Assembly (NCBI RefSeq): GCF_026914265.1
Contig: NC_069133.1
Span: forward strand, 27,331,272 to 27,395,271
Reading direction: 5' to 3'
Length of the DNA stretch: 64,000 nucleotides
Source of the DNA: Mya arenaria
Taxonomy: Eukaryota; Mollusca; Bivalvia; Myida; Myidae
Part shown: piece by piece, positions 9,540-64,000 of the stretch
How positions within the stretch are numbered: position 1 is the first letter of the stretch
How the letters are laid out: each line of letters opens with the position of its first letter
Notes under the pieces: generated by a model
Told to the model about the DNA's origin: nothing
The model's database searches: none
What the model saw: the letters and a program-made list of their open reading frames with translations, nothing else
Translations under genes and position numbers: made by a program

Positions 9540-11040
9540 TTGCTGGTACCTCAGTACCACTTTGGCTCACTTGACTAGGCTGGTACCTCTGTGTCACTTT
9601 GGCTCACTTGACTAGGTTGGTACCTCTGTGTCACTTTGGGTCACTTGACTAGGTTGGTACCACTGTGCCACTTTGGGTCACTTGACTAGGCTGGTACCTC
9701 TGTGTCACTTTGGGTCACTTGACTAGGTTGGTACCACTGTGCCACTTTGGGTCACTTGACTAGGCTGGTACCTCTGTGTCACTTTGGGTCACTTGACTAG
9801 GCTGGTACCTCTGTGTCACTTTGGGTCACTTGACTAGGCTGGTACCTCTGTGTCACTTTGGGTCACTTGACAAGGCTGGTACCACTATGCCACTTTGGGT
9901 CACTTGACTAGGCTGGTACCTCTGTGCCACTTTGGGTCACTTGACTAGGCTGGTACCTCTGTGCCACTTTGGGTCACTTGACTAGGCTGGTACCTCTGTG
10001 TCACTTTGGGTCACTTGACTAGGTTGGTACCTCTGTGCCACTTTGGGTCACTTGACTAGGCTGGTACCTCCGTGCCACTTTGGGTCACTTGACTAGGCTG
10101 GTACCTCCGTGCCACTTTGGGTCACTTGACTAGGCTGGTACCTCCGTGTCACTTTGGGTCACTTGACTTGGCTGGTACCTCCGTGTCACTTTGGGTCACT
10201 TGACTTGGCTGGTACCACTGTGTCACTTTGGGTTACTTGACTTGGCTGGTACCACTGTGCCACTTTGGGTTACTTGACTTGGCTGGTACCACTGTGCCAC
10301 TTTGGGTTACTTGACTTGGCTGGTACCACTGTGCCACTTTGGGTTACTTGACTTGGCTGGTACCACTGTGCCACTTTGGGTTACTTGACTAGGCTGGTAT
10401 CACTGTGCCACTTTGGGCTACTTGACTTGGCTGGTACCTCCGTGCCACTTTGGGTTACTTGACAAGGCTGGTACCTCTGTGCCACTTTGGGTTACTTTTC
10501 TAGGCTGGTACCACTGTGCCACTTTGGGTTACTTGACTAGGCTGGTACCACTGTGCCACTTTGGGTTACTTGACTAGGCTGTACCACTTTGGGTTACTTG
10601 ACTTGGCTGGTACCTCTGTGCCACTTTGGGTTACTTGACAAGGCTGGTACCTCTGTGCCACTTTGGGTTACTTTTCTATGCTGGTACCTCTGTGCCACTT
10701 TGGGTTACTTGACTAGGCTGGTACCACTGTGCCACTTTGGCTCACTTGACTAGGTTGGTACCTCTGTGTCACTTTGGGTCACTTGACTAGGTTGGTACCT
10801 CTGTGTCACTTTGGGTCACTTGACTAGGTTGGTACCACTGTGCCACTTTGGGTTACTTGACTAGGCTGGTACCTCTGTGCCACTTTGGGTTACTTTTCTA
10901 TGCTGGTACCACTGTGCCACTTTGGGTTACTTGACTAGGCTGGTACCATTGTGCCACTTTGGGTTACTTGACTTGGCTGGTACCACTGTGCCACTTTGGG
11001 TTACTTGACTTGGCTGGTACCTCTGTGCCACTTTGGGTTA
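9540..11040. repeat. 37-bp minisatellite, left arm (about 40 units)
   Basis: The unit is ggctggtacctctgtgccac followed by tttgggtcacttgacta, with c/t and cact/ctct variants. The array is unrelated in sequence to the 37-bp array at 1-1810. It is split at 11040 by a transposon and resumes at 12738 in register, so the two arms were once one array. Confidence 0.97.
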
Positions 11041-12735
11041 CTGTGAAATCATTAATGTTCGTGGGGCATAAATGTTCGTGGTTTTCGTGGGTTGGGTGAT
11101 CCACGAATTCAAGATCCCACGAAATATTGACCATTTATTCCCTTTTTCAATTGCCATGTTATGAACATACTCTAGTTTATTCGTTACGGAGGCCGCAATA
11201 CACATCGTAAATATACATCTAACTGTATATCTTACTATCATTGTTTTGTTAATATAGTATATCAGCCTTTAACAAATAATAAACCAAATCATTTTAATGT
11301 GTTTTTATGAACCCAGGGCTTGAATTTAACTTTTTCTGATACTCGCAAATTTTTGCGAGTGCTTAAATTTTCAACTCGCAAAACCAGACACTCACTCGCA
11401 TTTTTTTAAGGCAAACCATTGTGTTTGCTAGGAAAATATATATATTGTATGGAAAACAATGGTTAAAGGTATAGTGTAACTGTTTTAATGAATGATCATG
11501 TAATTTTTCATTATTGATTAAACGATATCATCATAAATGTAACACTGGCAATACGTTCTGAGGAAGTCTGATCAGGCCAGTATTGGTCTGTTTAATGTTT
11601 AACTTCCTCTTCCACATTGAAACAGTTTTAACGGACGGATTATTTCATTTTGGATTCTTTTTTGGAACTGATTGATCATTGCCGTCAGCAATTTTAAAAT
11701 GAACATGCATATTTTTTTGCTTGTCATCATTTTATAGACTGTATCTCGATACGATTATCACTAAAAATAGCCGCCAAAAGTTTAAACGAAAGACCAGTCT
11801 ACAAAAATACATAGTAACGAGTACCTGCCACATTGTAACGAGAACCAGTGCCTGTGCGCATAATGTTAGTCTACATCATCAGTTTCTATGTGATTATCGG
11901 AAAACGAAATGAGTAGGCATTTTTAAAATTAATTTTATATCTATTGTGCAGGAATTGATCACCGATTATGTTCATATCTATTTCAATGATTGCATATTTT
12001 CTGCAAATTTTGAACTCGCAAATTTTTGCGAGTGTCTTTAAATTCAACTCACATTTTCAAATTTTGGCTCGCGAGTGCTAAATTCGAGCCCTGGAACCAA
12101 ATGACAGAAGCACGTGCCTTAACATGTGCTGTTCATGGAAATCTCCAAGTTTACAAGATGTGAGTGATGAGTGTCAGTTCTCGATTTTAATTCTTTAATG
12201 AAATAATTAATCGATTACAATAGAGGCTACTAAGCACCCAATGTGACAATGTACAAAACAAAGCGTTCAATATACTTATTTAACGAAACGTGTGAATAAA
12301 TATTGAAATGAGATGATTCAAAAGTAATTGAAATTGTAAACACCAGCTATCTTTAGGGATTGTTTATTCAAATATATGTAGACCTTCTCGGTGTTTTCAC
12401 AGTTTGCAAAATTGGCATTCAATGGCTTCGTCTATCTGTATTTAGGATCAGGGTACATCCTCTTTTATGACCTTAATTTCCAATTAAATCGATAATTGAC
12501 ATAGATATATGCACTAATTTGCATGTCATACGACTTTAGCGAGTGTCATAAACCGAGTGACGTCGACAAAGGAAATCACGGGTCAGCGCGTGGAATGCAG
12601 TAGATCTAGGACGATCGCAATTTCGATTATTTATTTTTTTCAAAAATGAAAAACCACAAATTCAAGTACCCACAAAATTGTAATTTTTCTGCAAACCACG
12701 AAATTTCATGCCAACGAATATAAATGCTTTCACAG
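11041..12735. mobile_element. TA-flanked non-autonomous transposon inserted in the minisatellite
   Basis: The left terminus ctgtgaaatcattaatgttc is mirrored at the right (ctgtgaaagcatttatattc on the minus strand). TA lies at 11039-11040 and 12736-12737. Removing the element and one TA restores the minisatellite phrase gggttacttgac, so the insertion point is exact. Length is 1695 bp, or about 910 bp without the nested element. No transposase frame is seen. TA target use suggests a Tc1/mariner-type helper; that is inference. Confidence 0.9.
11314..12093. mobile_element. 780-bp CAGGG-ended transposon nested inside the TA element
   Basis: The left end is cagggcttgaattta; the right end, inverted, is cagggctcgaattta. 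GAACC lies on both sides (11309-11313 and 12094-12098). The older host copy near 5171 shows the empty site. Just inside each end is a palindrome-like actcgcaaatttttgcgagt block, which also occurs in the 54.7-kb relative. Non-coding. Confidence 0.92.
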
Positions 12736-12737
12736 TA

Positions 12738-13690
12738 CTTGACTTGGCTGGTACCTCTGTGCCACTTTGGGTTACTTGACTTGGCTGGTACCACTGTGCC
12801 ACTTTGGGTTACTTGACTTGGCTGGTACCTCTGTGCCACTTTGGGTTACTTGACTTGGCTGGTACCACTGTGCCACTTTGGGTTACTTGACTTGGCTGGT
12901 ACCACTGTGCCACTTTGGGTTACTTGACTTGGCTGGTACCACTGTGCCACTTTGGGTTACTTGACTTGGCTGGTACCTCTGTGCCACTTTGGGTTACTTG
13001 ACAAGGCTGGTACCTCTGTGCCACTTTGGGTTACTTTTCTATGCTGGTACCACTATGCCACTTTGGGTTACTTGACAAGGCTAATACAACTGTGCCACTT
13101 TGGATCACTTGACTAGGCTGGTATCACTGTGCCACTTTGGGTTACTTGACAAGGCTGGTACCTCTGTGCCACTTTGGGTTACTTGACTAGGCTGGTACCA
13201 GTGTGCAACTTTGGAATACTTGACAAGGCTAATACCACTGTGCCACCTTGGGTTACTTGACTAGGCTGGTACCACTGTGCCACTTTGGGTAACTTGATTA
13301 GGCTTGTACCTCTGTGCCACTTCTGGATCACTTGATTAATCTGGTCTCCCTGTGCCACTTTGGATCACTTGACCAGTCTGGTCTCCCTGTGCCACTTCTG
13401 GATCACTTGACTAGTCTGGTCTCCCTGTGCCACTTTGGTCATTTGACTAGGCTGGTACCTCTGTGCCACTTTTGGTCATTTTGGCATGGCTGGTATCCCT
13501 GTGCCACTCTTAATCACTTGACTAGTCTGGTATCCATGTGTCACTGTTGGTCATTTTGCAAGGCTGGTATCCCTGTGCCTCTTTTGGTCACCTAACTAGG
13601 CTGGTACATCTGTGCCTCTTTTGGCCACCTGACTAGGCTGGTACCTCTGTGCTAACTTTGAATCATTTGACTAGGCTGGTGAATTTGTGC
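12738..13690. repeat. 37-bp minisatellite, right arm, decaying toward the zinc-finger gene
   Basis: This continues the left-arm unit, with growing divergence after about 13280 (tctggatcacttgac, ttggtcattt variants). It ends only about 135 bp before the splice acceptor of the first recognised exon of the zinc-finger gene, so it lies in that gene's promoter or first intron. The 93-residue frame across it is a translation of the repeat. Confidence 0.95.
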
Positions 13691-21771: not shown

Positions 21772-24700
21772 TCACCAATTAGACAGTTGATCTTTAGCTT
21801 CTTGTACGTATTCTTTGCTACATCCTTTGAATATCATCACATTTAGGTTGTTTTTCAATACAAGAGTACAGAAAACCTTTGGGTCACGTCTCTTGCTGAG
21901 AAGAAATTCTTGCACTTTGACGTTGTAATAGAAGTTCTTTGGTTGTATATACTCATCAACGTAAAGGTTTCTGATGTCATTTTCAAGCTCTTCTAATTCA
22001 AATTTGACTTTTAAGTATTCTTGGTATCCACATATTACATCTACAATAGGAGGTGAGGTCTCGGTAAAGGCTTGAATCTGAAATCACAAATTGCATGTTT
22101 AATTGCATGTTTGTTGCCAAGTCAAGGGACACATACTACTGATATTACTGCTGCTGTTACTGTTTCTACTACTTCTGGTGCAGCTGCTGCTGTTACTGTT
22201 GCCGTTTCTACTACAACTGCTGCTTCTACATCTACCATTGCTACTGTTACTGTTGCTGTTTCTACCACTGCTGCTACTGCTACTATTGCTACTGTTGCTG
22301 TTCCTACCGCTGCTGTTTCTGCTACCATTGTTGCTGTTTCTACTGCTGCTGCTGCTGCTACTGCTAGCATTGTTACTGTTGCTGTGTCTACTACAACAAC
22401 TGCTAATACTTCTACCTTTGCTACTGTTACTGTTGCTGTTTCTACCACTGCTGCTACTGCTACCATTGCTGCTGTTACTGTTGCTGTTTCTACTACAACT
22501 GCTGTTTCTACTGCTACCATTGCTGCTGTTATTGTTGCTGTTTCTACTGTAACTGCTGTTGCTACTGCTATCATTGCTGCTGTTACTGTTGCTTTTTCTA
22601 CTGCAACTGCTGTTTCTACTGCTACCATTGCTGCTGTTACTGTTGCTGTTTCTACTGCAACTGCTGTTGCTACTGCTACCATTGCTGCTGTTATTGTTGC
22701 TGTAACTGCTGTTGCTACTGCTATCATTGCTGCTGTTATTGTTGCTGTTTCTACTGTAACTGCTGTTGCTACTGCTATCATTGCTGCTGTTATTGTTGCT
22801 GTTTCTACTTCAACTGCTACTGCTACCATTGCTGCTGTTACTGTTGCTTTTTCTACTGCAACTGCTGTTTCTACTGCTATCATTGCTGCTGTTACTGTTG
22901 CTGTTTCTACTGCAACTGCTGTTGCTACTGCTACCATTGCTGCTGTTATTGTTGCTGTAACTGCTGTTGCTACTGCTATCATTGCTGCTGTTATTGTTGC
23001 TGTTTCTACTGTAACTGCTGTTGCTACTGCTATCATTGCTGCTGTTATTGTTGCTGTTTCTACTGTAACTGCTGTTGCTACTGCTACCATCGCTGCTGTT
23101 ATTGTTGCTGTTTCTACTTCGACTGCTACTGCTACCATTGCTGTTATTACTACTGCTGCTGCTACTGCTACTATTACTGCTACAACTACTTCTACTGCTT
23201 ATTGTTTGGATGTTATATTAATTGATATTTTTTAACATTGCCATTTAATTTGCTTATGGTGTCTGAATTATTACAGCTTTGTGTATTCAAAGAACAGCTT
23301 CACATGTTGATTAATACTTGAATTGATTTCAAATGTGCTCAGCTTTGAAAGGATAGGTATGACCTTACTAGCTATACATGACTGTATAGTTTCTTGCCCA
23401 AATTTAAGGCAAGCATTTAATATTTCTTTCTATTTCTGAGAAATCTTAAAAAAAAGTTTGTTTTTATTTACAGTGTACATCATTAACAACGTTTCCATAT
23501 TTGATCCTATAACAGTTTTTTTCCTGGTCATGTTAGGTCAGTACAGGTCTATAGTTTTACATACGCAAGTAGCAATAAGAGATAATGTTACCTTCACAGT
23601 TTTGAATGTCTGCCTGATATTTGTGATCGTCTCTTTGAACAAAAAATATGCAATATGAGCAGTTTCTCCACGTAATCGCCACTCTACGTTACCATCTCTT
23701 AGCTGTATACTTATCCCTGCAAAATTTTAAGAACAATCAAAGCACTGACAGTACTGTAATATTGGGGCGGTGGATAATTTACCAAAAACTGACATGATAC
23801 CCATTGCCTTGCGATCCCTTTTAGATCAGTATCAATTGCACCACACAGTTATGAAAGATGCATTTATCTCTTATATAACTCACAGTCTACGAATGATATT
23901 GATTACATGCACATTTTAAATCTAATGAGATAGCTGAGTTTAAGATCATTATATATATATAAACCATCAAAAACTCACTTGAAGAAATAAAACATTTAAT
24001 AAATGTCAATGTCAAACAAAGTTTTATTTTGGAGTTAATATGCATATGTTTTTCTCAGTTTCACGCTTTGGACTCGTTATCATATATCTATGTACAGTAC
24101 AATCATTTTATACAAAACCGTTACTTTTCAGCCATACATGTCAGTTAAAGTAAATGGGTTCCTGTTTGTTAATTCATGCAAAGAAATGCAAAATCTGACC
24201 AACTTACCTGTCTTGGGCACAGACTCATTCAGATGTTCCAGCGTGTGTACAGCGAGGTCAAGGATCTCCTGTTGATGCCCATATATGGCAAGCCTGTCCC
24301 CCGTCCCACCTACACGGAGCCCAAAGTTTTGCTCCAGCAGAGCCCGCAGCCTTCCCAGACCACCTGTCACCCGCTTCCACTTATTTAGCAAAAACTTGGG
24401 GATCTTTGTGCTCATCTGTGGCTTTCCTAGGCTGCTCTGTAAAGATCAGGAGGTCGTTATAAACTAAGTCAATTTTGGTCGTAAATTGAAATTACCTTAC
24501 TGCCAAAGTTTCATTATATTTGTGTGAATTGTACTTCAGCCAACACTGAAAATGAAAACCGAGCTGAGGAAATAAAGCATACTCCATGCATTACTATTTG
24601 TGTCGTTTATACAGATCAAAAAACATTTAAGTAATGAATAAAACCTTTTTTGAAACGGCTCCGAGGAGGTTAATTGATTGAATAGACGCGAAATACAACT

Positions 24701-27700
24701 TGTACTTCTACCAAATGCGTAAGTTTCAACTCGCAAACTCTTAAGACCATCACTGGCAAGTTAATTGTCTCTCGAATAAAACACTTTCCTAGTGATTTTG
24801 TAGTAGTCATAATACCTTCCACCTTATATATTACCTGCCATAGATCATACATTTTACACGTGTCCTAGGTATGTACTTTCCGAGTCTTAGATTTCCTTTT
24901 ATGACGTAGCTCACAAGAAGCTGTCCACACATTCATGTATCCATACGAGCACTGTTTTCCAATCTCTGTTTAACTAGTTATTACATGTATATCTAATAAC
25001 TTATTTAACATATTAAAAGTGTTCTTCACTCCCGCCAGTTATATGCAGTTATTGTTGCAGTTTCTTTGTAAGTACATGTACTTGTACAATGTGTTAAGTT
25101 CAACCGTATATCACAGAAGCAGTTTTACATGCTTTAGCTAGATTCTAACATAACATAACTGATACATGTAATGAATGACTTTATAGACTGTTCAATTAAG
25201 CAAGAGCAATTGAACATGCATTGTTTAGCAGTGGAGACGTTTAAACTGTCTCAGGTAACTTCTGTTTATAATGTATGTGTTTCGAGGCGGGTTTTATTTC
25301 AGCATAGCTTGTCTGACCTGCACACACAGGTTAAGTATACCACTGGAACGAATATTCAAATTACATATATACACTTTTCCCACATGCACAAGTAGTCTAT
25401 TGCAATTCTTAAGGCATTTCACACTGAGTTAAATATGGCTGAATCTTGTGAAACTATCTCAGAAGAGCAAAAAGAGCATATTGTAAGATTCGCTGCCTAT
25501 TGGATTAAAGCGCATTAATTATTAAATAAAACAGATCCAGACAATGTGTATAGGGAAACAGCTCTTCAATACCGTACTGTTGTTTATACAGATTTAAAAC
25601 CATTTAAGTTGTAGAACTAATAAAACCTTTATTGAAACGGCCCTGAGGAGGGTGAATTTAATGAATAAATGAATAGAGGCCACGCGAAACACAACTTGTA
25701 CTTCCAGGGTATAGAGAAACAGCTCTTCCATACCGTACTGTTGCATGAGGGGAAGCCTTGGTTAAGGAAGGTAAAAAAGTGTATTCAAGATGAGCTCTGG
25801 CCTGGCTGGCTGATTTCGGTGGCCTCTGATAAAGACATTGATGCTGTCAGATCCATAATAAGATGCCCGACTTACAGTGAAAGAATTTGGGGACATATCT
25901 GAGTTGCATTCTGCAGTGATGTATTCCTTATTGAATAAATTATTAAACATGCACAATGTTTGTATACAAATGTACGTTGAAAAACTTGATGAAGTTACCT
26001 CTTTCCTCTGCAATGAGACTTGTGTTTGAGCTGTATACGATGACTTTGTTGTCCTTGCTCTATTCCCTAAATATGTCTTGTCCAGTGGCTGGTGCAGTGG
26101 CCGGTCTAGTGTCCGATCCAGGGCTTGGAATGCTTGAACCTACAGTAAGGATGTTAACAGCTTATTTATTCTGCACTTTTGTACAGCTGACCAGTCATCA
26201 ACATTACACTTTTTTTCACCTACTGTCGACCCCAAAAAGGTTATACAATAGGTTATACAAGAGTTAATAGTTTAAAAAAGTAAAGTACAGTGTCGTTAGT
26301 AATACGTCTTTATCTAGATCTTAAAGTACAGTGTGGCCCTATATGAGGCCAGTGACATCCTCTCTGTAACATACAATGTTCTATGCTAGAAGTACAGAAA
26401 CTTTGACAAATAGTGGCCTGGTTATTGACATAGTATTGACAGGTATAAACATTTCAATACTGAAAGTCGCCGGGACACAGATAAAAAATTCGCATAAATA
26501 TGTTTATGTTTGTACTTGTTGAACATTCTGTAATATATTCAGTTTTCAATACGTTCATACCTGTAGAGAGATGATTGGAGTTTTCTCCCTTAGCTGGTCA
26601 GCACACAGTGGGCACTGTGCAGTGGTGGTGAGAGAGGGGTCCACACATCCTGAACACAGCACATGCTTACAGGCAAGGTACACAGGGCTCGAACACTCAC
26701 GCTGACAGTGGGAACATTCTAAAATGAAATCTTTACTATTAAACATTTGCTTAATGCAATGACGTGCATGTCTGTGAGTTGTTCAATATTGAGCTTGTCT
26801 TTTACATACTTTCGGTCTTTCAAGGTTAAGTATATAAACTCTTTAACTTGTCTTCAATATTGTGTATACTTAGGTCCTCAACATTGTATGTTTTGGTATT
26901 AAGCAATGTATTTAATCTAGGTTTTTAATATGATGTATCATGTCTTCAACATTGTGTACATCAGTTCTTTAACAATGTGTATATCATGTCTTCAACATTG
27001 TGTATACCATGTCTTTAACATTGTGTATACCATGTCTTCTACACTGTGTATACCATGTATTCCACACTGTGTATTATGTCTTCAACATTGTGTATGCCAT
27101 GTCTTATTATTGTGTATACCATGTCTTCAACATTGTGTATACTACAGTACTGTTAAGACCAAACTTGACAGTAAGTGTATGTCTTTAACATTATGCATAT
27201 CATGTTTTCAAAAATGTGCATATCATGTCTTCAACATTGTGCATATCATGTCTTCAACATAGTATACATCATGTCTTCAACATAGTATACATCATGTCTT
27301 CAACATTTTGCATATCATGTCTTCAACATTGTGTATAACATGTCTTCAACATTGTGCATAACATGTCTTCAACATTGTGCATATCATGTCTTCAACATTG
27401 TGCATAACATGTCTTCAACATTATACTATGTCTTCAACATTGTTCATAACATGTCTTCAACATTGTGCATAGTATGTCTTCAACATAGTATACATTATGT
27501 CTTCAACATTGTGCATAACATGTATTCAACATTGTGCATATCATGTATTCAACATTGTGCATATCATGTCTTCAACATAGTATGCCTCATGTCTTCAACA
27601 TAGTATACATCATTCTTCAACATTGTGCATAACATGTCTGCAACATTGTGCATAGTATGTCTTCAACATTGTGCATAACATGTCTTTAACATCGTGCATA

Positions 27701-30700
27701 ACATGTCTTCAACATAGTATACATTATGTCTTCAACATAGAATACATTATGTCTTCAACATTGTGCATAACATGTCTTCAACATTGTGTATAACATGTCT
27801 TCAACATTGTGCATAACATGTATTCAACATTGTGCATATCACGTATTCAACATTGTGCATATCATGTCTTCAACATAGTATGCCTCATGTCTTCAACATA
27901 GTATACATCATTCTTCAACATTGTGCATAACATGTCTGCAACATTGTGCATAGTATGTCTTCAACATTGTGCATAACATGTCTTTAACATCGTGCATAAC
28001 ATGTCTTCAACATAGTATACATTATGTCTTCAACATAGAATACATTATGTCTTCAACATTGTGCATAACATGTCTTCAACATTGTGTATAACATGTCTTC
28101 AACATTGTGCATAACATGTCTTCAACATGATGCATATCATGTCTTCAACATTGTGCATAACATGTCTTCAACATTGTGCATAGTATGTCTTCAACATAGT
28201 ATACATGATGTCTTTAACATCGTGCATAACATGTCTTCAACATAGAATACATTATGTCTTCAACATTGTGCATAACATGTCTTCAACATAGTATACATCA
28301 TGTCTTCAACATAGTATACATCATTCTTCAACATTGTGCATAACATGTCTGCAACATTGTGCATAACATGTCTTCAACATTGTGCATATCATGTATTCAA
28401 CATTGTGCATAACATGTCTTCAACATGATGCATATCATGTCTTCAATATTGTGCATATCATGTCTTCAACATTGTGCATATCATGTCTTCAACATAGTAT
28501 ACATCATGTCTTTAACATTGTGCATATCATGTCTTCAACATAGTATACATCATGTCTTTAACATTGTGTATACCATGTCTTCAACATTGTGTATACTATG
28601 TCTTCAACATTATGCATATCATGTTTTCAAAATTGTGCATATCATGGCTTCAACATTGTGCATAACATGTCTTCAACATTGTGTATGTCATGTCTTTAAC
28701 ACTGTGCATATCATGTCTTCAATATTGTGCATCAACATTGTGCATAACATGTCTTTAACATTGTGTATAATATGTCTTCAACATGGTGCATGTCAGGTCT
28801 CACCATTTTGTGAATATGCAATAATATATTCAGAAATGTACTATTATTTATTTGGTAAAAGGGATACTTTGAAAGAATAAGATTAAAGGAGATCCGCCAT
28901 TTGGATCTACCATCTATATTTCTTTCAATCTAAAATGTCATTCAACTAGATTTCTAAAGGACCATACTTCAACATCATACATTGTATTACATAATCATAC
29001 TAACCTTTACAGAATATGCTGAGGAACTCCTGTTTTGTGGCTTGAACTGTGTCTTTGTCCTTGGCTCGAATGCCAAGCTTGTATCCAGAGTCTGTTTGTT
29101 TCACCAGGCATAAGACATTACTGTCAGTCTCCTTCAGCAAGGCATACACCCTCAGTCGGAACACATCGCTGTCCGGTCTGGCCACTTCCTCCATCGCCAC
29201 TGTATGCAGAGCATCAACAATATCCCTGAGGCCATAGTCAACCTCAGTGTAAGCCTCAGGGTCACAAGTCACAGTTATTTTGGTATCAATGTCTCTTAGA
29301 TCAGACATGCTGTCAAACAAATGTTTTTTCTGTGCTTGCCTGAGATACTGATCAGCTTGTCTGGAAATTCTCCCAGACTGACTTGAACATCTGTCTGAAC
29401 TGGCCTCAACAAATTTAGTCCATGATGTCCGAGTGCCATTACTGAACACTGTTACAACAACTGAATGATGTTCGGAGAATAAAGTCATTTTATCAACAAA
29501 CAATTTTAATGTTATGATGGCAGACTCACCACAAATTGTCCACTCTATCTTTCCCTGCTTCACCCGTTTGGTTATGTCCTTACTCTGATTAATTGTGTCA
29601 TTCCCCAGTTGTTTTACAGTGTCACATACAAGGTCCAGCACCTGGTCGTCATCAGCAAGCAGTGTTACACTTGAACTTATATAGTTTGCACACACCTGAA
29701 GGCCAAGCTCGGTTTTTATAAGGTCTACAGCTTGACAGAAATTCAGACCATATCTCTCTCTAAAGATTTGTAACAAATCTTCATCCACATGTTTGGACTT
29801 TGACATCTGTTGGACAACAAAGGTAACCAAAACATTAGTATTTTGCAGTACTGGTATCCCTTTCGAACTATTTGTGCTTTTTAAAGTAAAAAATTAACAA
29901 AAATACATAAAAATTGTCATTATTTCTAAGTATACTGTATAAAGGGCCATAAAGGTAAATATTAAGCATTAGTTACATAACAAATAACAATAAAAAATAA
30001 CAACCTAGTGACCTTACTTCAAGATTTTGTTATGACGATCCAATAAGATGTATTTTAGGGACTGGATTACATTTGATAAAGCAGATATGTTTAGACATCC
30101 AAAAAAAAGTATGAAATGTTAACAAGGTGCTTGTTTCATCAAAGTTCAGTTGCTTTCATTGTTAAAAAAATGAAAAAGGTGATAGGAAATGCTCTACCAT
30201 GCTGAAAAGCATTACCTAGTTACGCTACTAAAAATTGAATTGTTTTAGGCATCAACGAGGATCTTTCAGTCGCTGTTTGGTGTTCATTCATAAAAGTAAA
30301 ATGATCAATTTTAGTAAAATATTAATCTATTTGCCAGCATAAATCATTGAGTAGATCTCTTTAAATAAACGTAATCCATAAAAAAACTTACTTAACTTTT
30401 TGCCACAAAAGAAATTGGTTTAAATAAACTTGTACCTACATGTATATATAAATATTGACATGTCAAAAAAGAATATGTTTGTCTTACACATTGTACAGTG
30501 GTGTGGCGCAATGTTCCACCAAACCTGGCATGCATTTCCTCACAGAGGCCACACATCTTCTGACAGCAGTGGGGGCAGTAGCGGGAGGCGTGGTTAGCCT
30601 CGATCTCACACACATCACACGGCAGAGTGCCCCGCCCCGCTCCTAATGTACTGGGGGTCAGGCATGACACTGACTCTGCATCTGACGAGGGTGTAACTGT

Positions 30701-32636: not shown

Positions 32637-33680
32637 GTGTCGCCTGACGAATTATTTAATGTCGACATTATAGCTGTTAGATTGGCATTTCATTCATTTA
32701 TAGACAATGATGTTGCCATTTAACTTTCAAGTGTAGGTGGCATTTGAACCCTCAATCAGATATACCTACGGAATAAGTTTCAGGTTGAAACCTCCTATAG
32801 TTTACGAGATATGCCACGGACAAAACCTAAGCAAGAAAATTAACAAAGGGCAATAACTCTAAAAATATGGCAGCAAGAGTAACGATTCTTGTGTACTGCA
32901 CTTGCCCTCAATGAGATCTATCTAGCTATGAAGTTTCAAGTTGATACCTCTTATATTCTTCAAGATATGCCACGGACAAAACCTAAGCAAGAAAATTAAC
33001 AAAGGGCAATAACTTTAAAACTAAGAAAGCAAGAGTTACTGTTATTGTGCACTGCACTTGCCCTCAATGAGATATATCTAGCTATGAAGTTTCAAGTTGA
33101 TACCTCTTATATTCTTCAAGATATGCCCCGGACAAAACTTTAAGCATGAAAATTAACAAAGGGCAATAACTTTAAAACTAAGAAAGCAAGAGTTACTGTT
33201 ATTGTGCACTGCACTTGCCCTCAATGAGATCTATCTAGCTATGAAGTTTCAAGTTGATACCTCTTATATTCTTCAAGATATGCCCCGGACAAAACTTTAA
33301 GCATGAAAATTAACAAAGGGCAATAATTTTTAAACTAAGAAAGCAAGAGTTACTGTTATTGTGCACTGCACTTGCCCTCCATGAGATCTATCTACATATG
33401 AAGTTTCAAGTTGATAACCCTTATATTCTACAAGATATGCCCCGGACAAAACTTTAAGCATGAAAAATAACAAAGGACAATAACTCTAAAAATATGGAAG
33501 CAAGAGTTACAGTTCTTGTGCACTGCACTTGCCCTCAATTAGATCTATCTACATATGAAGTTTCAAGTTGATACCACTAATAGTTTAGGAGATATACCCC
33601 GGACAAGCGAAAATGGGACACGGACGCCGCCACCGCCGCCGACAAAAGTAACCCTATATGTCGTCTTTTCAGGCGACACA
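32637..33680. mobile_element. Non-autonomous element with GTGTCGCCTGA ends and five 157-bp internal units
   Basis: The left end tgtgtcgcctgacg is mirrored by ttcaggcgacaca at the right. Inside, the phrase cttgccctca(a)tgagatc recurs at 32901, 33057, 33214, 33371 and 33528, a period of 156-157 bp. Each unit also has aacaaagggcaataact and a degraded gatatgccccggacaaaac. Repeats of this type are, to my knowledge, common in bivalve genomes. Non-coding. Confidence 0.75.
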
Positions 33681-50759: not shown

Positions 50760-51800
50760 ATACGCTCTTAAGTACTTGTAAAATGATACATCGTCAGCAT
50801 ATGAATAATAGTGTGTAGTTGACCAGTATCATTTTTAATAACTACTCCATATTGGTTTTAACTCTTATGTTGCTTATTAAATCATTCATAAAGAAAGAAA
50901 AAATTCTCGGGGAGCTCAAACATCCCTGATTAATGTCCCAACTTCACATTGAAAAATGTCTGTGAGCCCATTCCTCAGTTTGACACTTGCTTTCACAGTT
51001 CACTTTGCTGTACATTGAGCAAAATATTTGCAAGTATTTTCCTTGTATATTGTTTGTAGTTTAAGACATTCCCAAATCTTTTGGTGCTGGCAACTATCAA
51101 AGGCCTTAAAAAAATCATCAAGAATTACATAGAAACGTCCGCGTTTTTGAGTAGTGTATTTCTGAATGAAAAATTGTAAATTGAAAACATTATCAATCAG
51201 TGAGTAGCCCTTTCTGAATCCTGTTTGTGATTTTTGTCTGTTGTAGTGTTGTTGCCAGACCAGTTCATGAATCTTTTTAAGAAAATCTGCAATTTTTTTT
51301 TTTCTCAAACTGCTCAATAAGGTTATTGCACTTTTATTAATAGGCTCTAATTTTGACTCTTTTTGTGAATCAGACAAATCATGCTTTCACCCATACGTCC
51401 GGAAAAGTTCCACTTTCAAATATTGAATTAAATAGTTTTGTCAAAAAAGTTTAATACTATCAGAAACTTCACAATCGCTTACTGGATCGTATAAAGTACC
51501 CGTATTGGTCTCCCTTGATAACCGTTCAGTTACATCGTTCTCAAAATGTGCTCCTATATTTTCGGTGTGTACATTTGTAAAGTATCTCAGCAAATTTCAT
51601 AACATTCTCATTATCATTGTTCTTGTACTCCTGCAAAGTTCTTGTACTCTTGTGCATGTGCATTTCCCTGCTTGTAAGCCTTTGAGGTCCTGTTGCCAAC
51701 ACTGAGCTGATTTTAACAGGAGTCTTTTGTTTCATTATTTAACCAAGCTCTAAAATATTGCACAGTCAGGTTTAACTATACATATCTCTTTACCACCATT
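50760..51800 (-). mobile_element. Second dead LINE fragment (reverse transcriptase)
   Basis: The minus-strand frame 51377-51000 contains QTGFRKGYSLIDNVFNLQFF and YVILDDFFKAFDSCQHQKIW, the reverse transcriptase region around the first catalytic aspartate. Frame-shifted continuation toward 50890 gives RNGLTDIFQCEVGTLI and FSFFMNDL. Upstream, 51735-51541 may be the linker before the RT domain. Stops and frameshifts are present. It differs from the 43.6-kb element, so at least two LINE types are represented. Confidence 0.75.
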
Positions 51801-53649: not shown

Positions 53650-56160
53650 AACTAGGTGTATTTAGATGGGGAAACTGTGTCAGTGTGTGATGTGACGAGA
53701 AATGGGCAACAGGGAGTAACTGGGAAAAGGACAGGATTGCATGGAGTGGTGACAGGAGTAAAATGTAAAGGAGGGGTGTTTGGTTTGAAACTTGCGGATG
53801 GATTGGAAGCTGGACTTAAATATGATGTCCTCCGTTGGGGTATGATATACGAGCTGGACTCTGTTGAACTGGTGTGACCATCATAGCCGTCATGAACAGG
53901 AAAAGGGGTCGACCTCGTTTTGGGCTTGCGGCCAGTTTGAAGTGGACGGGCCTCCTCGGACTCTGGAATCAATATGAATGGAAGGAGTAGATTCCGGTGA
54001 AGCGTCCTGACTGGTCCTTTGCGAGTCTCAAGTTGGACCTTTGTAAACTGGCTGTCCCTCGTATGGAATATCTATGATGGAGTATGCGTTCTTCTTCCAT
54101 TTATCAGCAAGCTTTGGATGTCTTTGTAAGCTGAACTTCTGTACCAGCACTACATTACCAATAGATGTTCTCCCGGACTCTCTGGTTATACTGGTCCTTG
54201 TTCTGTTCAGCCCTCTTACTTGCCGCTTTGCCAGCTACCCTATATGCATATCTCAGGCATTCCTGGAGCCATTAGACATACGAAGAATGGTTTGCACCAT
54301 TCTCGTTCCTAAGTGTCGTGCCAAGATATGCATTCACAGAGTGCCGGGAATGCCAACCAAACATCAGATAATGGGGAAAGACCCCAGTTGAGCTGTGTTT
54401 GATGGCATTGTAAGCATGTACAAGGGAAGGAATGAAGTCGGCCCACCTGGACTTGTGGTCCTCCTCAAGGGTTCACAGCCTGCGGAGTAAAGTCCGGTTG
54501 AATCTTTCTGCTGAGGGGTTGCCAATAGGGTGGAATGGGATCGTGCCTATTTTCCGGACATTAGCAATGCTACACAACTCCTTTCGAAATTTTGACCCTA
54601 GTTGGAATGTAGTTGTTCGGGAAATGCTCGTACAGAGCCGTGCAGTATTCGTCGTCTTCTGGTTCCTGCATGGGATGGCTTTGGAATATTGAGTAAAATG
54701 ATCTGTGATAACCTCAGGGTTCGAATTTAGACTCGCATACTCGCAAAATGCGAGCAACATTTGGAAATTGCGAGTGACTTTTATTCAAGCTTGCAAAATT
54801 CTGCGAGTGGCTTTTTCTAGACCACAAAATGTTATAAGGAAAGTAGAATAAACATGAACTTAATTCTGCTATGTAGTCGAGTGTAAACAGCCTATAAGTG
54901 GCATGTTTACACTACCGGTATAAAGAAGACAGTACGAAGTCACACGTAGGTTTTCAAAAATAGAACAAATACGGAAAAGGCCGAGTTTTATCTTGAATCT
55001 TTCCGGGAGGCGTGCATAATACAAAGTAAATATGAATGACGTAATCACCCAGCTCAATCATTGGCTAAATTTAGCGCTTTTGCGCACTATATGTAAACCC
55101 CATCATCCTCTGAATATATTTCCGCCCAACTGTCAAAATGAATAGACTTCGTTGATCGATATATTTCATGGTCCAAAGTATCCACGCTACATTTACTGTT
55201 GCTTTTTTATTTTAAATTTATTATTTTATTGTTTTTAATGCCTATAGACTTAATGAAATCTGTAGCGTGCTTGTATTAAATTACCTGATGGCGAGGGTAA
55301 ATATACAAAGTGAACAATGTCAAATTATTGGACAGCTTTGTTATCAAAAAGCTGCCAGCATCAGACGAGTCTTTCCATACTCCCCAAATAGAATAAGCAA
55401 TCAACAAGTTCTAGTAGTCGAGTCACTCAAGATTGATACTTTTCAATATTCATAATATGTCTTAGGTATAATTTCTACTTTAATTAGACACTATTATAAG
55501 GGAATAAAGAGAAATAATAAAATTTGTTTTGTCATTTTGCGAGTTGCCTCAAAATGCACTCGCAAAATTTTGCGAGTGCTCCTCAAAGTTTAATTCGAAC
55601 CCTGAACCTATACATCTTCATATCCACCCTTGGATTTCTCCAACTTCAGAAAATGGATGCAGACAAGTTACATGGGCCTAGTAGTTTGGATGGGCACGAG
55701 CTCCGCTGCCGGAATAATCAAATTTGAGGGGTCTTTCTACATACACAAGAGCTGCACGAGGAAACAAGCTGCTTGAAATCAGACTCCATACCTGGCCAGA
55801 AGAAACGCTGATGTGCAAGCCAAAGAGATTTTTCTTGTCCAGGATGTCCAACTTCATTGTGCACACCATTTGGCGAGAACTGTGCCGCAGAAACAACTTT
55901 GGCTATGTCAGGTTCCTTAGCTTGTTCAATATCCCAGTTGATAGGGTTAACTGGTGCAATCCAGCGGTGACCAGTGGCGTCAAGTTTATCATTAAGAAGA
56001 TCAAAAGAAGACTGCTGGGCGTCACCCCAGACCAAGTCTACAGGTTTTTTTCGTTTAGACTTGGACTTTGACTTAGGTTTTGTGTTACCATAACTTTCAA
56101 GTAAGTGATTTAATGGCTGGACAATTTGAGAAAAGTCACGAATAAATCAGCGTACTTTGA
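53650..56160 (-). mobile_element. Ty3/Gypsy retrotransposon relic (RT end, integrase, C-tail)
   Basis: Read on the minus strand, the order is: an RT C-terminal piece (FIRDFSQIVQPLNHLL, then VWGDAQQSSFDLLNDKL), directly followed by the integrase zinc region (HNEVGHPGQEKSLWLAHQRF, with SCSSC). Then comes the integrase core start ITDHFTQYSKAIP and its end PFHPIGNPSAERFNRTLL, a PYYLMFGWHSRHSVNAYLG tail and a final KPKTR-rich segment near 53950. The RNase H region expected between RT and integrase is missing. Stops and frameshifts occur. An 890-bp transposon splits the integrase core. No long terminal repeats seen. Confidence 0.88.
54715..55604. mobile_element. 890-bp CAGGG-ended transposon inside the Gypsy integrase
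   Basis: The left end cagggttcgaattta and the inverted right end cagggttcgaatta agree. AACCT is duplicated at 54710-54714 and 55605-55609. Subterminal actcgcaaaa/tgcgagt blocks relate it to the element at 11314-12093. No transposase is recognisable. Confidence 0.9.
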
Positions 56161-59023: not shown

Positions 59024-62000
59024 ATGGGAGACTGGCTGCATTGTAATTCATGTTACCGACAGCCAGGCAGTGGCAGGAACTATTTCCTCACCAACTGTGG
59101 TCATATCTACTGTGAAAATTGTCAGGACAAAGGTTATGCATATATAATAACTTAAAAATACATTGTCAACCTTTAGTATATAAATAGCTTGATTTGAATG
59201 TGAGAATTTGCAGATTTATGACTGTTTTGTATTTTTGAAACATCAATCACAAATTTTACATGATTTTTTTAAATTTTCTTAAGACAGGAGGCAATTTTTT
59301 TTAATTTTAGGAAATAGCACTTACAAAATTTTAAATGAAAAAAAGGGAAAGGAGAAAATAACAAATTCCGGCTACTGCTTCCGGCGGATACTGCTCATCA
59401 ACCAGTAGATTATTATATTCAATAAAAATCCTTCAGCCATTCAGTATTTTATGCCTTTTATCAACATTTGTCTTGTACTTTGATGGTATAACATGCTCCT
59501 TCTTCTTCATTTTTTAATTTGTTACGGTAATTTGTTGATCAGTTATCACTAGTATTTGTTATTGTTGTAAAAATAATTAATGTTCCTGTTGATTATGTTA
59601 TTCTTTTATCTTGACAATTTGAATTTTGTGGAAAAAAAAGTTTGGCATGTTATCTCAGTTGGTAGCACACCTAGCTAATAAGACTACCTTTGTGAAACCA
59701 AATTGAGTTTTTATGAGCTGATACAATATTAATAACTTCTATATCCTTTGTTCAGTTGTTCAGGACCATCACACATTGAGGTTACATAACTCCATATTAT
59801 CCTAAATACAAGTTATGGCCCCTGATTGACTTAGGTTAAAGTTTTAGGGCAGGTTAAGTTTTAGGGCAAGTTGGGATTTTCACTTAAAACTCCAATACCA
59901 TTCATTCAATTGACTTAATACTTCACACAGATGTTCAGAGCCATCACATAATGAGGTTAGATAACTCCATATTCTCTTTTATACAAATTATGGCCCCTGA
60001 TTGACTATGGAACTTCGGTTAAAGTTTTAGAGCAGGTTGGGATATTGTTTAATAACTTCTATACCCTTCATTCAATTGACTTAATACTTCGCACAATTGT
60101 TCAGGACCATCACCCAATGAGGTTACATAACTCCATATCCTTAATACAAGTTATGGCCCCTGATTGACTTAGGTTAAAGTTTTAGACAAGTAAAAGTTAA
60201 GAGGAAATTGGAATTTTAATAAAAAAACCTTCTATACCATTCATTAAATGCACTAAATAAAATTCAAAATTATTTACGACCAACTTACAACAAGAAACAT
60301 AACTCCGTATTAAGCCTAAATACAAAATATGGCCCTTGGATTTTTTTATTATTATTTTTTTATTTTCTTTGAAAGGCATATTTGTATATTCTTAACCAGA
60401 TTTTCATAATGGGAAATCAAGTTATTTGAATGACTTGCGTCTTTGTTTGGGCGGGCTGGTGGAAGGGAAGCATCAAAGTCACCTTATGTATCGAATAATT
60501 TTAGTTAGGTTTGACATAAAGATACCAAACTTGGTATTATTTCATCTATATTGTATTCTAAGTCAAAGCGGCGTAGTTGAGCCCACTGTCTTACGACGGC
60601 TCTTGTTTTTTTAGTCATGGAAACTGAGATTTTCTTGAACATGTCAGAATGCTTTGATAAATTATGTTAATGATAAATATAAACTATTTATTTCATTTTA
60701 TATATAAATAAAAAAATAAAAATACATATTTATATAATAATTTAATGATTTATAATGATATTCTTTCAGGTTGGAAGGAACGTTGTTTGTTGTGTGGCAC
60801 AGGACATCCCAGTTCCTTCAAGCTCACCTCAAAAGTTTGTAGTGTTCAATATGATTGCAACAAAAATAATGAGTTTTAAATCAAATTCTGTAAATGAAAT
60901 GAAATGTTGACAGAGGTCTGCTTCATGTTGAATGTGAAAACTTGTATCTATGCTCTATAGTAATAGGTCATTGAAAAAAAGAAGGTTTTAACTGTCAGTG
61001 ATTGCTAAATATTTAGCAGGTAATGTAAGATGGCAATATATTTCAGGGAGTGAGCACCATGCAAAAGCTATATTACACGAGTGGCGTAGACACAAGTGAA
61101 TTACAGATTTTTGATGTCCACAAAGTGAAATTTATTGCAATCTTACACTAACACAAACATGTTTTTTGTTATCTTTATGCCTAAAAAGGATATAAAATGA
61201 CAGTTATTTGTAGTTTTAAGACTGTGGGAATTATCATTTTTTTTTATTTTAAAGATAAATCTTTATAAGTCTTAAGATAGCAGTATTGTAAATGTGCACA
61301 CATATTATCATGGTTTTAATGGTGAACAATTACCAGTAAGACTTGAATAATTCATGCTTCTGACTTCATTGATATGTTTGCAGTTACCCCCACCAGTGGA
61401 TGCCTACTTTTCTGATCCAATCAAGATGCTGAAGCAGACTGCATCAGAAATGAAACAGATACTAGCTGTAAGTAATTGCCAAAGTCTATCATAATGTGCT
61501 CGGACACACTGCTTCCATAACAATAAATCAATCCATTAAAGTATTCTTCTGTCTTCATGTTGGCCTAAATGAAACCGTGAACATTTAAAGAAAATCATAC
61601 ATTTAAACATGATTGTGAAAAAATGTATTAGATTTTTTAAATGGTCTTATAGAATTACCAGAATTTACTTCCATATTAAACCAACTGTGTTTTTTTATTC
61701 CATATAACAAATCTACTTTTGCAATGCTTCTCAAAAGAAATATGATTTTTTCTGTCAAATTAAAAATCATTTGTAAAGAAAAATAATATAAATTTTATTT
61801 AAAAAAAACAACCTTAGCTTTAAACATTTGAAAAAATACAACGTTAGTTTGTGGAATGGTATCACTTCTTGTCGTTTGTACAAGATTCATTGCATTCAAC
61901 CTTCAATTGTGCAAGATAGACTTAATATGCAAGCAACACAATACATATCTGGGCCAAAGCTATTTTGACCAATGCATAAAAGCTTGAATATTTAAGCTTA

Positions 62001-64000
62001 TGTTTTCCTTTCAGGCTACAGAATTTCAACATCATCAGAGGAAGCGCTTCATGACACATTTACAAAAAAATGTGAGTTGCAGCCAAATTGACTAATGTTT
62101 AAGATAATAATGTTAATGGATTTATATGTTAATATAAATAAAATGGCAGTGAAAGTCTTGTATTGGATAGATTATGATTAATTTAATAAAAAACAGGGTT
62201 AACTCATGTACTGTGTTGCGTTGTGCATTATAAGAACATAATGTTACAGACCCTTGTGTATGTAAAAGGGATAAGTCAGACCTGAAACGGGATTTGTATA
62301 ATAGGTTTATTCTGTACAACAGTTTAACAGCAGCTCCATGTAACTATGTTTCTTAGAATACCTGAAAATAATGCGTGAATGCTATTTGCTGAATACAAGC
62401 TGGTAGGTGGAGCTTATTAGAGACCATACAAAGCATAAAGGTGCATGTACTTTATTTTTAAGGGGCTCACATTGTCAGTGACGATTATCTTTTTTGCTTG
62501 GTATTCTTTACGTCACTGATGTAGGTGTCCAATCAGAAGGCCATTGTAGAAAAGTGTGAGAAAGAGCTAAAGGAGAAGACCCTGACTGTATTCGCTCAAC
62601 TTGAAAAGTAGGTTTGACTATAATGTGTTAAAAATTCAAAAACTTAATTTTAAAAAACAAACTTTTTTGACATAATTTTTATGTTGAAAAATGTATACTA
62701 ATCTGACTTTTTTCTTGCTGTTAATAATTCCATGATTGCATGCATTCATGAGTAAGTATTTGATGCTCATATGTCTGAAATTCACATTCTGTGGTGTTTT
62801 ATTTTTTCAGAGAGAAGACTAAATACCAGAATGAGAGCAGACAGTTGAAAGAGGAGAACAAGTACTTGAAGGTCCTCCTCAGTGAAAAGGTTGGTGGTTT
62901 TTCTGTTATGCATCATTCATGGTACCTACCAGAAGGTACACCTTAGTGAAAGGTTGGTAGTGAGTTAAACACCATGGTAGTTGAAGGTACTCCTCAATGA
63001 CAAAGTCTGTGGTTTTCTGTTATACATCATGATACCTGAAGGTCCTCCTCAGTGAGAAGGTCGGTGGTTTTTATTATACATCATGATACCTGAAGGTCCT
63101 CCTCAGTGAGAAGGTCGGTGGTTTTTGTTATACATTATGATACCTGAAGGTCCTCCTCAGAGAGAAGGTCATTGGGTTTTTTTATACATCATGATACCTG
63201 AAGGTCCTCCTCAGAGAGAAGGTCAGTAGTATTTTTTATACATCACGGTACCTGAAGGTCCTCCTCAGAGAGAAGGTCGGTGGTTTTTGTTATACATCAT
63301 GGTACCTGAAGGTCCTCCTCAGTGAGAAGGTCGGTGGTTTTTATTATACATCATGGTACCTGAAGGTCCTCCTCAGTGAGAAGGTCGGTGGTTTTTGTTA
63401 TACATCATGGTACCTGAAGTCCTCCTCAGTGAGAAGGTCGGTGGTTTTTGTTATACATCATGGTACCTGAAGGTCCTCCTCAGTGAGAAGGTCGGTGGTT
63501 TTTGTTATACATCATGGTACCTGAAGGTCCTTCTCACTACATCATGGTACCTGAAGGTCCTCCTCAGTGAGAAGGTCAGTAGTTTTTTGTTATACATCAT
63601 GGTACCTGAAGGTCCTCCTCAGTGAGAAGGTCAGTAGTTTTCTGTTAAACATCATGGTACCTGAAGGTCCTCCTCAGTGAGAAGGTCAGTAGTTTTCTGT
63701 TATACATCATGGTACCTGAAGGTCCTCCTCAGTGAGAAGGTCAGTAGTTTTCTGTTATACATCATGATTCCTCAGTGTAAAGGTCAGTGTTTTTCTGTTA
63801 TACATCATGGTATCTAAGGGTCCTCCTTAGTGTGAAGGTCAGTGTTTTTCTGTTATACATCATGGTACCTGAAGGTCCTCCTCAGTGAGAAGGTCGGTGG
63901 TTTTTGTTATACATCACGATACCTGAAGGTCCTCCTCAGAGAGAAGGTCGGTGGTTGTTGTTATACATCATGGTACCTGAAGGTCCTCCTGAGTGAGAAG
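59024..64000 (+). CDS. RNF212: RNF212/RNF212B-family RING protein, first six coding exons (3' end outside window)
   Basis: Exons are 59024-59132, 60770-60834, 61384-61467, 62015-62071, 62525-62607 and 62811-62889, phases 1,0,0,2,0. The 159 residues begin MGDWLHCNSCYRQPGSGR. The RING has CNSC, CGH, CENC and CLLC, split by intron 1, and FLTNCGHIYC is the family signature. After it come a helical segment (DAYFSDPIKMLKQTASEMKQ) and a coiled coil ending LKEENKYLKVLLSEK, as in RNF212B. An acceptor at 59016 implies a 5' UTR exon. In mammals these proteins (related to yeast Zip3) mark and stabilise crossover sites in meiosis and are SUMO- or ubiquitin-ligase-like. Donors gttatg and gtttgt of the first two introns are weak. 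The Ser-rich C-tail must lie beyond 64000. RNF212 versus RNF212B cannot be settled. Confidence 0.88.
59740..60330. repeat. Three decayed about 170-bp units in RNF212-type intron 1
   Basis: The phrase tgttcagga/gccatcac recurs at about 59757, 59932 and 60099, each followed by gaggtta..taactccatat and aagttatggcccctgattga. This is a typical diverged non-coding repeat. Confidence 0.7.
62863..64000 (+). repeat. 54-bp minisatellite derived from the end of exon 6 and its donor
   Basis: The unit is tacctgaaggtcctcctcag tgagaag followed by gtcggtggtttttgttatac atcatgg, about 20 copies with 54-55 bp spacing and a few truncated copies, open at the window end. The first 27 bases match the last 27 bases of the coding exon (62863-62889) at 25 of 27 positions, and the following bases match the intron start. 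Most units keep GAGAAG|GTC(G/A)GT. The frame translates as YLKVLLSEKVGGFCYTSW per unit. Confidence 0.95.

Follow-up and report, generated by a model that had tools for sequence, protein, structure and literature searches.

A probable mirage-type minisatellite where exon 6 meets intron 6 in an RNF212/Zip3-like gene of Mya arenaria

The 64,000 nucleotides of Mya arenaria DNA analysed here (contig NC_069133.1, positions 27,331,272 to 27,395,271 of the forward strand, or C12:27331272-27395271 in the genome search; hereafter the window) contain most of a tandem array located in a gene that resembles the meiotic crossover factor RNF212/Zip3. The array is probably a 'mirage'-type minisatellite, the name given to comparable structures in amphioxus; it would occupy the exon 6/intron 6 boundary, be intronic and be mostly spliced out. 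It is probably devoid of function and variable in length. Arrays of this type were already known, and what is new here is a phase clash at exactly the junction that holds the array.

The array and the exon from which it departs are located as follows. The sequence pieces L003 to L005 make up the next 30 kilobases (kb) past the window, and positions above 64000 are joined coordinates (64000 plus the position on L003).

62863..64000, continuing on L003 up to base ~110 (joined ~64110), + strand: minisatellite of boundary copies (Tandem Repeats Finder (TRF), wraparound alignment, genome search)
62811..62889, + strand: coding exon 6 (79 bases), with C-terminal residues YLKVLLSEK and donor AAG/GTTGGT (exon model, alignment, donor scoring)

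A preliminary description of this DNA had proposed that the repeat unit combines the end of exon 6 with its splice donor, and this was borne out: unit 1 is composed of the final 27 bases of the exon and the first 33 of the intron, donor included, and the consensus unit of 54 base pairs (bp) straddles the boundary. Wraparound alignment to this consensus gave 24 rows between 62863 and ~64110, namely 23 complete or shortened units and a partial one. Units 1 to 21 lie wholly inside the window, unit 22 begins there, and the array extends, as had been anticipated, ~110 bases beyond. The earlier figure of about 20 copies of 54 bp was right as to the existence of the array, but only ten of the 23 units measure exactly 54 bp; their lengths are, in order, 60, 55, 55, seven times 54, 53, 54, 30, 55, 55, 55, 51, 47, 55, 54, 54, 60 and 59 bp. 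Identity to the consensus revealed a homogenised centre and diverged edges, the first three units displaying 85, 72 and 84 % and the last two complete ones 83 and 81 %, while the 18 interior units ranged from 54 to 100 %, most of them reaching at least 87 % (exceptions: 54, 76 and 85 %).

When a 109-base query of two units was compared with the 1.216 gigabase genome (1,216,080,610 bases in 18 contigs), 12 matches were obtained, all inside this array, which argues that the array grew in place from the boundary. A dispersed element, considered as a candidate, was ruled out by the same search. The match spanning the exon-6 junction (C12:27394133-27394232, window 62862-62961) displayed an E value of 3.2e-15, so the likeness between exon 6 and the array is not due to chance.

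The mirage reading follows from a unit made of an exon end plus its donor and adjoining the authentic junction, from the absence of the array elsewhere in the genome, which points to an origin in situ, from minisatellite-rich surroundings, and from amphioxus mirages of the same anatomy that were reported as harmless to splicing. A 54-bp stretch straddling the boundary would have been duplicated in tandem in place, and the resulting array would have expanded by slippage or unequal exchange. Exon definition favours, as a rule, the donor that lies nearest. The spliceosome would then mostly pick the one beside the authentic exon, and the array would be excised as part of the intron; any leakage to donors of the array, in the first place to that at 62953, would include the stop codon at 62944 and yield a truncated, decay-prone mRNA.

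The gene carrying the array was modelled as 12 coding exons with canonical AG and GT ends, exon 6 being deduced from the open frame, splice signals and family match. Besides exon 6, they are:

59024..59132, + strand: coding exon 1, RING finger, begins with ATG (exon model; zf-RING_5, PF14634, on exons 1-6)
60770..60834, + strand: coding exon 2, end of the RING (exon model, in phase)
61384..61467, + strand: coding exon 3 (exon model, in phase)
62015..62071, + strand: coding exon 4 (exon model, in phase)
62525..62607, + strand: coding exon 5, coil-like (exon model, in phase)
64621-64676, 65045-65087, 65604-65634, 65859-65919, 66194-66248 and 66621-66675, + strand: coding exons 7-12 (exon model)

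The product of exons 1-6 displayed an N-terminal C3HC4-type RING of the zf-RING_5 class (Pfam search: PF14634, E 5.5e-10, 39.5 bits for a cut-off of 27.9). By eye, heptad-like leucines were noticed in the product of exons 5-6 and a tail rich in S/T-P in that of exons 7-12, for which the Pfam search returned no match. The order of these parts (RING, coil-like stretch, Ser/Thr-Pro tail) resembles that of RNF212/Zip3-like crossover factors, and the gene, which we take to be of RNF212 type partly on general knowledge of the family, is named accordingly. Its product had no match in the PDB at E 0.01 or better. A search of the whole genome with the protein (24 candidates scored) yielded nine matches at E 0.001 or better, and as all nine fall inside this gene, the search revealed neither a paralogue nor another copy; a paralogue or second haplotype was therefore discarded as a guide to the true junction. 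The RNA family search of the window and L003 gave nothing at the gathering score.

In the preliminary description, copies of the unit were thought to be readable as an in-frame repeat of 18 residues. Read in register with exon 6, the consensus unit is indeed open. Along the array, however, the frame changes again and again, only 14 of the 23 unit lengths being divisible by three, and stops occur in all three frames. The stop announced near 62944 was confirmed:

62944..62946, + strand: TAG in frame with exon 6, preceding every one of the 18 good donor copies (translation of the array)

Among those listed, the longest open reading frame inside the array (63195-63470, 91 codons, ~5 units) is not in the exon-6 frame, and variable columns numbered 15 of 27 for the exon half as against 17 of 27 for the intron half, which reveals no clear protection of the exon-derived half. 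Failure to keep the frame (ten of 23 units at 54 bp), stops in three frames and these column counts together indicate intronic, non-coding copies. A coding minisatellite, whose units would be read as repeats of 18 residues and extend a coiled coil, is extremely unlikely: a consensus open in one frame and a stretch open across ~5 units are what one would expect of it, but it is at odds with units of 30, 47, 53, 55, 59 and 60 bp and with stops in all three frames, the TAG at 62944 preceding the array proper. Unit lengths and stops together ruled out the 18-residue coding repeat.

Structures of the same kind have been described in other organisms. In amphioxus, 'mirages' are tandem duplications, similar to minisatellites, that copy exon-intron boundaries of Adh3 and of the globin genes BflGb6 and BflGb9; they include many copies with AG/GT signals, are unstable in length, have edges excluded from homogenisation and, according to RT-PCR (reverse transcription polymerase chain reaction), do not interfere with splicing (PMC3087553). 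Lancelet TnC and PGBD5 are further cases (PMC3902484). The present array shares with them the boundary-spanning tandem unit, the AG/GT copies and the diverged edges around a homogenised centre. It differs in animal group and gene, and in its dimensions, 23 copies of 54 bp as opposed to 6 and 3 units of 150-160 bp in BflGb6; splicing and length instability were examined in amphioxus, whereas the present array is known from the DNA of one assembly. A phase clash such as that reported below is absent from the mirage account in the consulted parts of these papers (PMC3087553, PMC3902484).

The human CBS gene also carries a tandem repeat at an exon-intron boundary, a 31-bp variable number tandem repeat at exon 13/intron 13 (Lievers 2001), more repeats being linked to lower enzyme activity (PMC5188458, PMC1395315); its unit is shorter than the 54 bp found here, and both polymorphism and effect were demonstrated for CBS, in contrast to the single assembly available here. 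Tandem genomic duplications that change introns are known from 24-nt repeats in fission yeast, potato RNA-dependent RNA polymerase (RdRp) and human internal tandem repeats (PMC3629103, PMC4974935, PMC2812944), and in fission yeast and potato they made new introns (PMC3629103, PMC4974935). There too, tandem copies hold splice signals at a gene boundary, but the outcome is a new intron or isoform, whereas the intron considered here probably pre-existed. A mollusc case of a boundary array was not found in the open-access literature, where mollusc and bivalve queries were only paired with RNF212 and none addressed mirages in molluscs. Likewise, no open-access paper was found for RNF212, bivalve and meiosis combined, and among those retrieved with RNF212 and 'mollus', none apparently dealt with a mollusc gene, judging from the listing.

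Several observations weigh against an idle, intronic mirage. Substitutions, counted over the 22 complete units without the junction copy and leaving out the partial last unit, were fewer in the exon half (24) than in the intron half (46). Exon-half changes fell two, seven and 15 times at codon positions 1, 2 and 3, respectively, and nine of the 23 scored ones were silent, compared with 18 among the 81 single changes that are possible. Since many of the changes were inherited from common ancestral copies and the second codon position shows no depletion compared with the first, this pattern was not taken as purifying selection; it was given little weight, though it is the one result leaning the other way. 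In addition, 18 copies in the array hold donors as good as the real one. Finally, joining the donor at 62889 to the acceptor at 64621, the best one before the next recognisable exon, leads to EK-ESFW-stop, and this broken frame makes a simple picture, in which the array is just removed, incomplete.

Donors and acceptors were scored with a generic animal matrix, and pairing energies were computed with a generic 5' end of U1, neither being specific to the host species. The claim that every unit offers a copy of the donor held for 18 of the 22 complete copies outside the junction, which keep AAG/GT(C/T)(A/G)GT (nine GTCGGT, eight GTCAGT and one GTTGGT), while the remaining four do not. GTCAGT copies had been presented as better donors than that of exon 6, and scoring with a splice matrix, as had been suggested, agreed to a modest extent, with values of 2.6 for the exon-6 donor, 2.5 for GTCGGT and 4.4 for GTCAGT. 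U1 pairing amounted to -7.6 kcal/mol for both exon 6 and GTCGGT, -8.1 for GTTGGT of unit 2 and -7.6 to -8.4 for GTCAGT. As the gene's own donors span -2.6 to -8.1 kcal/mol, these energies alone are not decisive for donor competition. The copies of most direct concern are:

62953..62958, + strand: nearest good donor copy, AAG/GTTGGT, in unit 2 (scores, U1); its use would give a 142-base exon containing the stop
63222..63227, + strand: first of eight GTCAGT donors (scores, U1), the others being at 63575, 63630, 63685, 63740, 63783, 63838 and joined 64001

A choice among array donors is conceivable and, downstream of 62944, would give truncated products. Human IFI6 (G1P3) carries a minisatellite with a repeat unit of ~12 bp. 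Its copies, like those of the present array, lie at an exon end and each offer a splice donor (Turri 1995), and downstream units are indeed used as donors (PMC4526556), whereas array donors are predicted here and their use would truncate the protein. By analogy, the array might serve as a bank of alternative donors, several copies being used and setting the level of productive mRNA through donor competition and mRNA decay. This appears unlikely: conservation of AAG/GTYRGT in the 18 copies, eight of them with better scores, and the IFI6 precedent are in its favour, but every such copy lies behind the TAG at 62944, exons ending there would grow from the authentic 79 bases to between 142 and ~1190, and amphioxus mirages with AG/GT copies were reported as harmless to splicing (PMC3087553).

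The phase clash itself is confined to a single junction. Of the 11 junctions, ten keep the phase, five of them linking exons 1-6 and five linking exons 7-12. The exception is the one across the array, between exons 6 and 7, which could not be fitted with the best-scoring sites. Exon boundaries were picked as canonical and open, so the agreement of the ten clean junctions is partly by construction. The donor previously assigned to 62889 was retained as the AAG/GTTGGT at the end of exon 6, but its phase does not match that of the next exon that can be recognised, which lies beyond the window; exons 7-12 are open in another frame, reading SPSGDRLRPDSSNSPATRG..., and 62889 is in frame only with an acceptor at 64592, outside the 40 best-scoring ones. 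Among the listed donors (62830-62959) and acceptors (64560-64669), 29 GT/AG pairs keep the frame. Those with acceptor 64621 use donors 62844, 62862 and 62922, all weak (scores -8.6, -2.2 and -0.8); for comparison, the gene's own weak donors score -2.1 (exon 2) and -0.7 (exon 1, U1 -4.1). By eye, the leucines of the coil-like stretch run on through YLKVLL, which speaks against 62862. Leaving out exons 7-9 (130 bases) would likewise restore phase, as would the following candidate sites:

62922..62927, + strand: candidate in-phase donor ATG/GTACCT at the unit 1/unit 2 boundary, with the whole of unit 1 coding (weak: score -0.8, U1 -4.1)
62933..62952, + strand: candidate 20-base exon derived from unit 2 (KVHLSER), needing a 43-base intron before it
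Joined 64248-64264 (L003:248-264), + strand: candidate 17-base microexon outside the array (GQTPIR) (scoring of phase-restoring exons)

Two candidate exons in the intron would restore phase and have summed scores of 0.8 or higher. In a random control, 196 of 300 stretches of equal length offered a phase-restoring exon at this level, so neither can be regarded as established. The clash may possibly stem from an unverified site or microexon (perhaps inside the array), exon skipping or a small indel in the reference, and the array may be involved. That its first units supply the in-frame junction, either through donor 62922 (adding VGGFSVMHHSW) or through the unit-2 exon (adding KVHLSER), seems quite improbable. 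This junction alone is out of phase, 62922 is about as weak as the donor of exon 1, and the unit-2 exon is the top-scoring phase-restoring exon in the intron; against this stand the random stretches, the 43-base intron, the lack of G at position +5 of 62922, and the microexon outside the array, which serves about equally well and has an equivalent in 67 of the 300 random stretches. The stronger version, in which the sole in-frame mRNA uses one of these array-internal sites, so that the duplicated-junction minisatellite would serve as the functional junction in a meiotic crossover factor and the number of array copies would govern the amount of full-length protein, is very doubtful. A one-base error of the assembly or a frameshift specific to one allele, located in exon 6, in exon 7 or at the acceptor and unrelated to the array, is an explanation of low probability. 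If the published clam reference is concerned, its PacBio reads were assembled with FALCON-Unzip and polished with 10x reads (PMC10663159), and an aberrant assembly was reported for one mirage of the amphioxus draft (PMC3087553), but the other ten junctions are clean, and array copies share the AAG/GT register of exon 6, which makes a recent error at the exon-6 end unlikely. Taken as units of a coding repeat, the copies also fail on the frame breaks, on the position of TAG 62944 before all 18 AAG/GTYRGT copies and on the column counts.

Minisatellites are numerous around the gene: 11 arrays with a period of at least 20 and at least five copies were found in 94 kb (eight in the window, none in L003, one in L004 and two in L005). 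Extrapolated to the whole genome, this local density would amount to ~140,000 arrays. With ~200,000 splice donors assumed in the genome, a random 54-bp founder would straddle one in ~0.9 % of cases, and in the order of a thousand such arrays could arise without selection, as a matter of rough arithmetic rather than measurement.

Further minisatellites of the window were located at 1-1816, 9542-11042, 12736-13680, 26936-28807 and 32749-33606, with periods of 37, 37, 37, 23 and 157, respectively; units of 37 bp recur with different sequences in the window and at L005:386-949. The region 22185-23199 displayed TGC/TAC-rich triplet-like units with nested periods of 15, 54, 108, 153 and 255, and might be a coding low-complexity repeat. 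A GTA microsatellite of ~75 units was found at L005:5024-5248. Retroelement remains included an Integrase_H2C2 fragment (55721-56146, - strand, E 1.8e-13) and a reverse-transcriptase-like fragment (51003-51386, - strand), whose RVT_1 score of 26.1 bits is under the cut-off of 29.6. Downstream of the gene and on the other strand, a sugar transporter frame (L003:8688-9998, - strand) runs for 436 uninterrupted residues (PF00083, E 5.8e-102) and off the end of L003.

Minisatellites that copy an exon-intron boundary received their name in amphioxus, and one of 23 copies in a bivalve RING gene of crossover-factor type suggests that they originate wherever minisatellites are dense. The array constitutes a natural test of donor choice by the spliceosome, which is offered 19 near-equal sites. 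Should the phase clash prove biological, it would provide a concrete example in which an essential junction is altered by a minisatellite.
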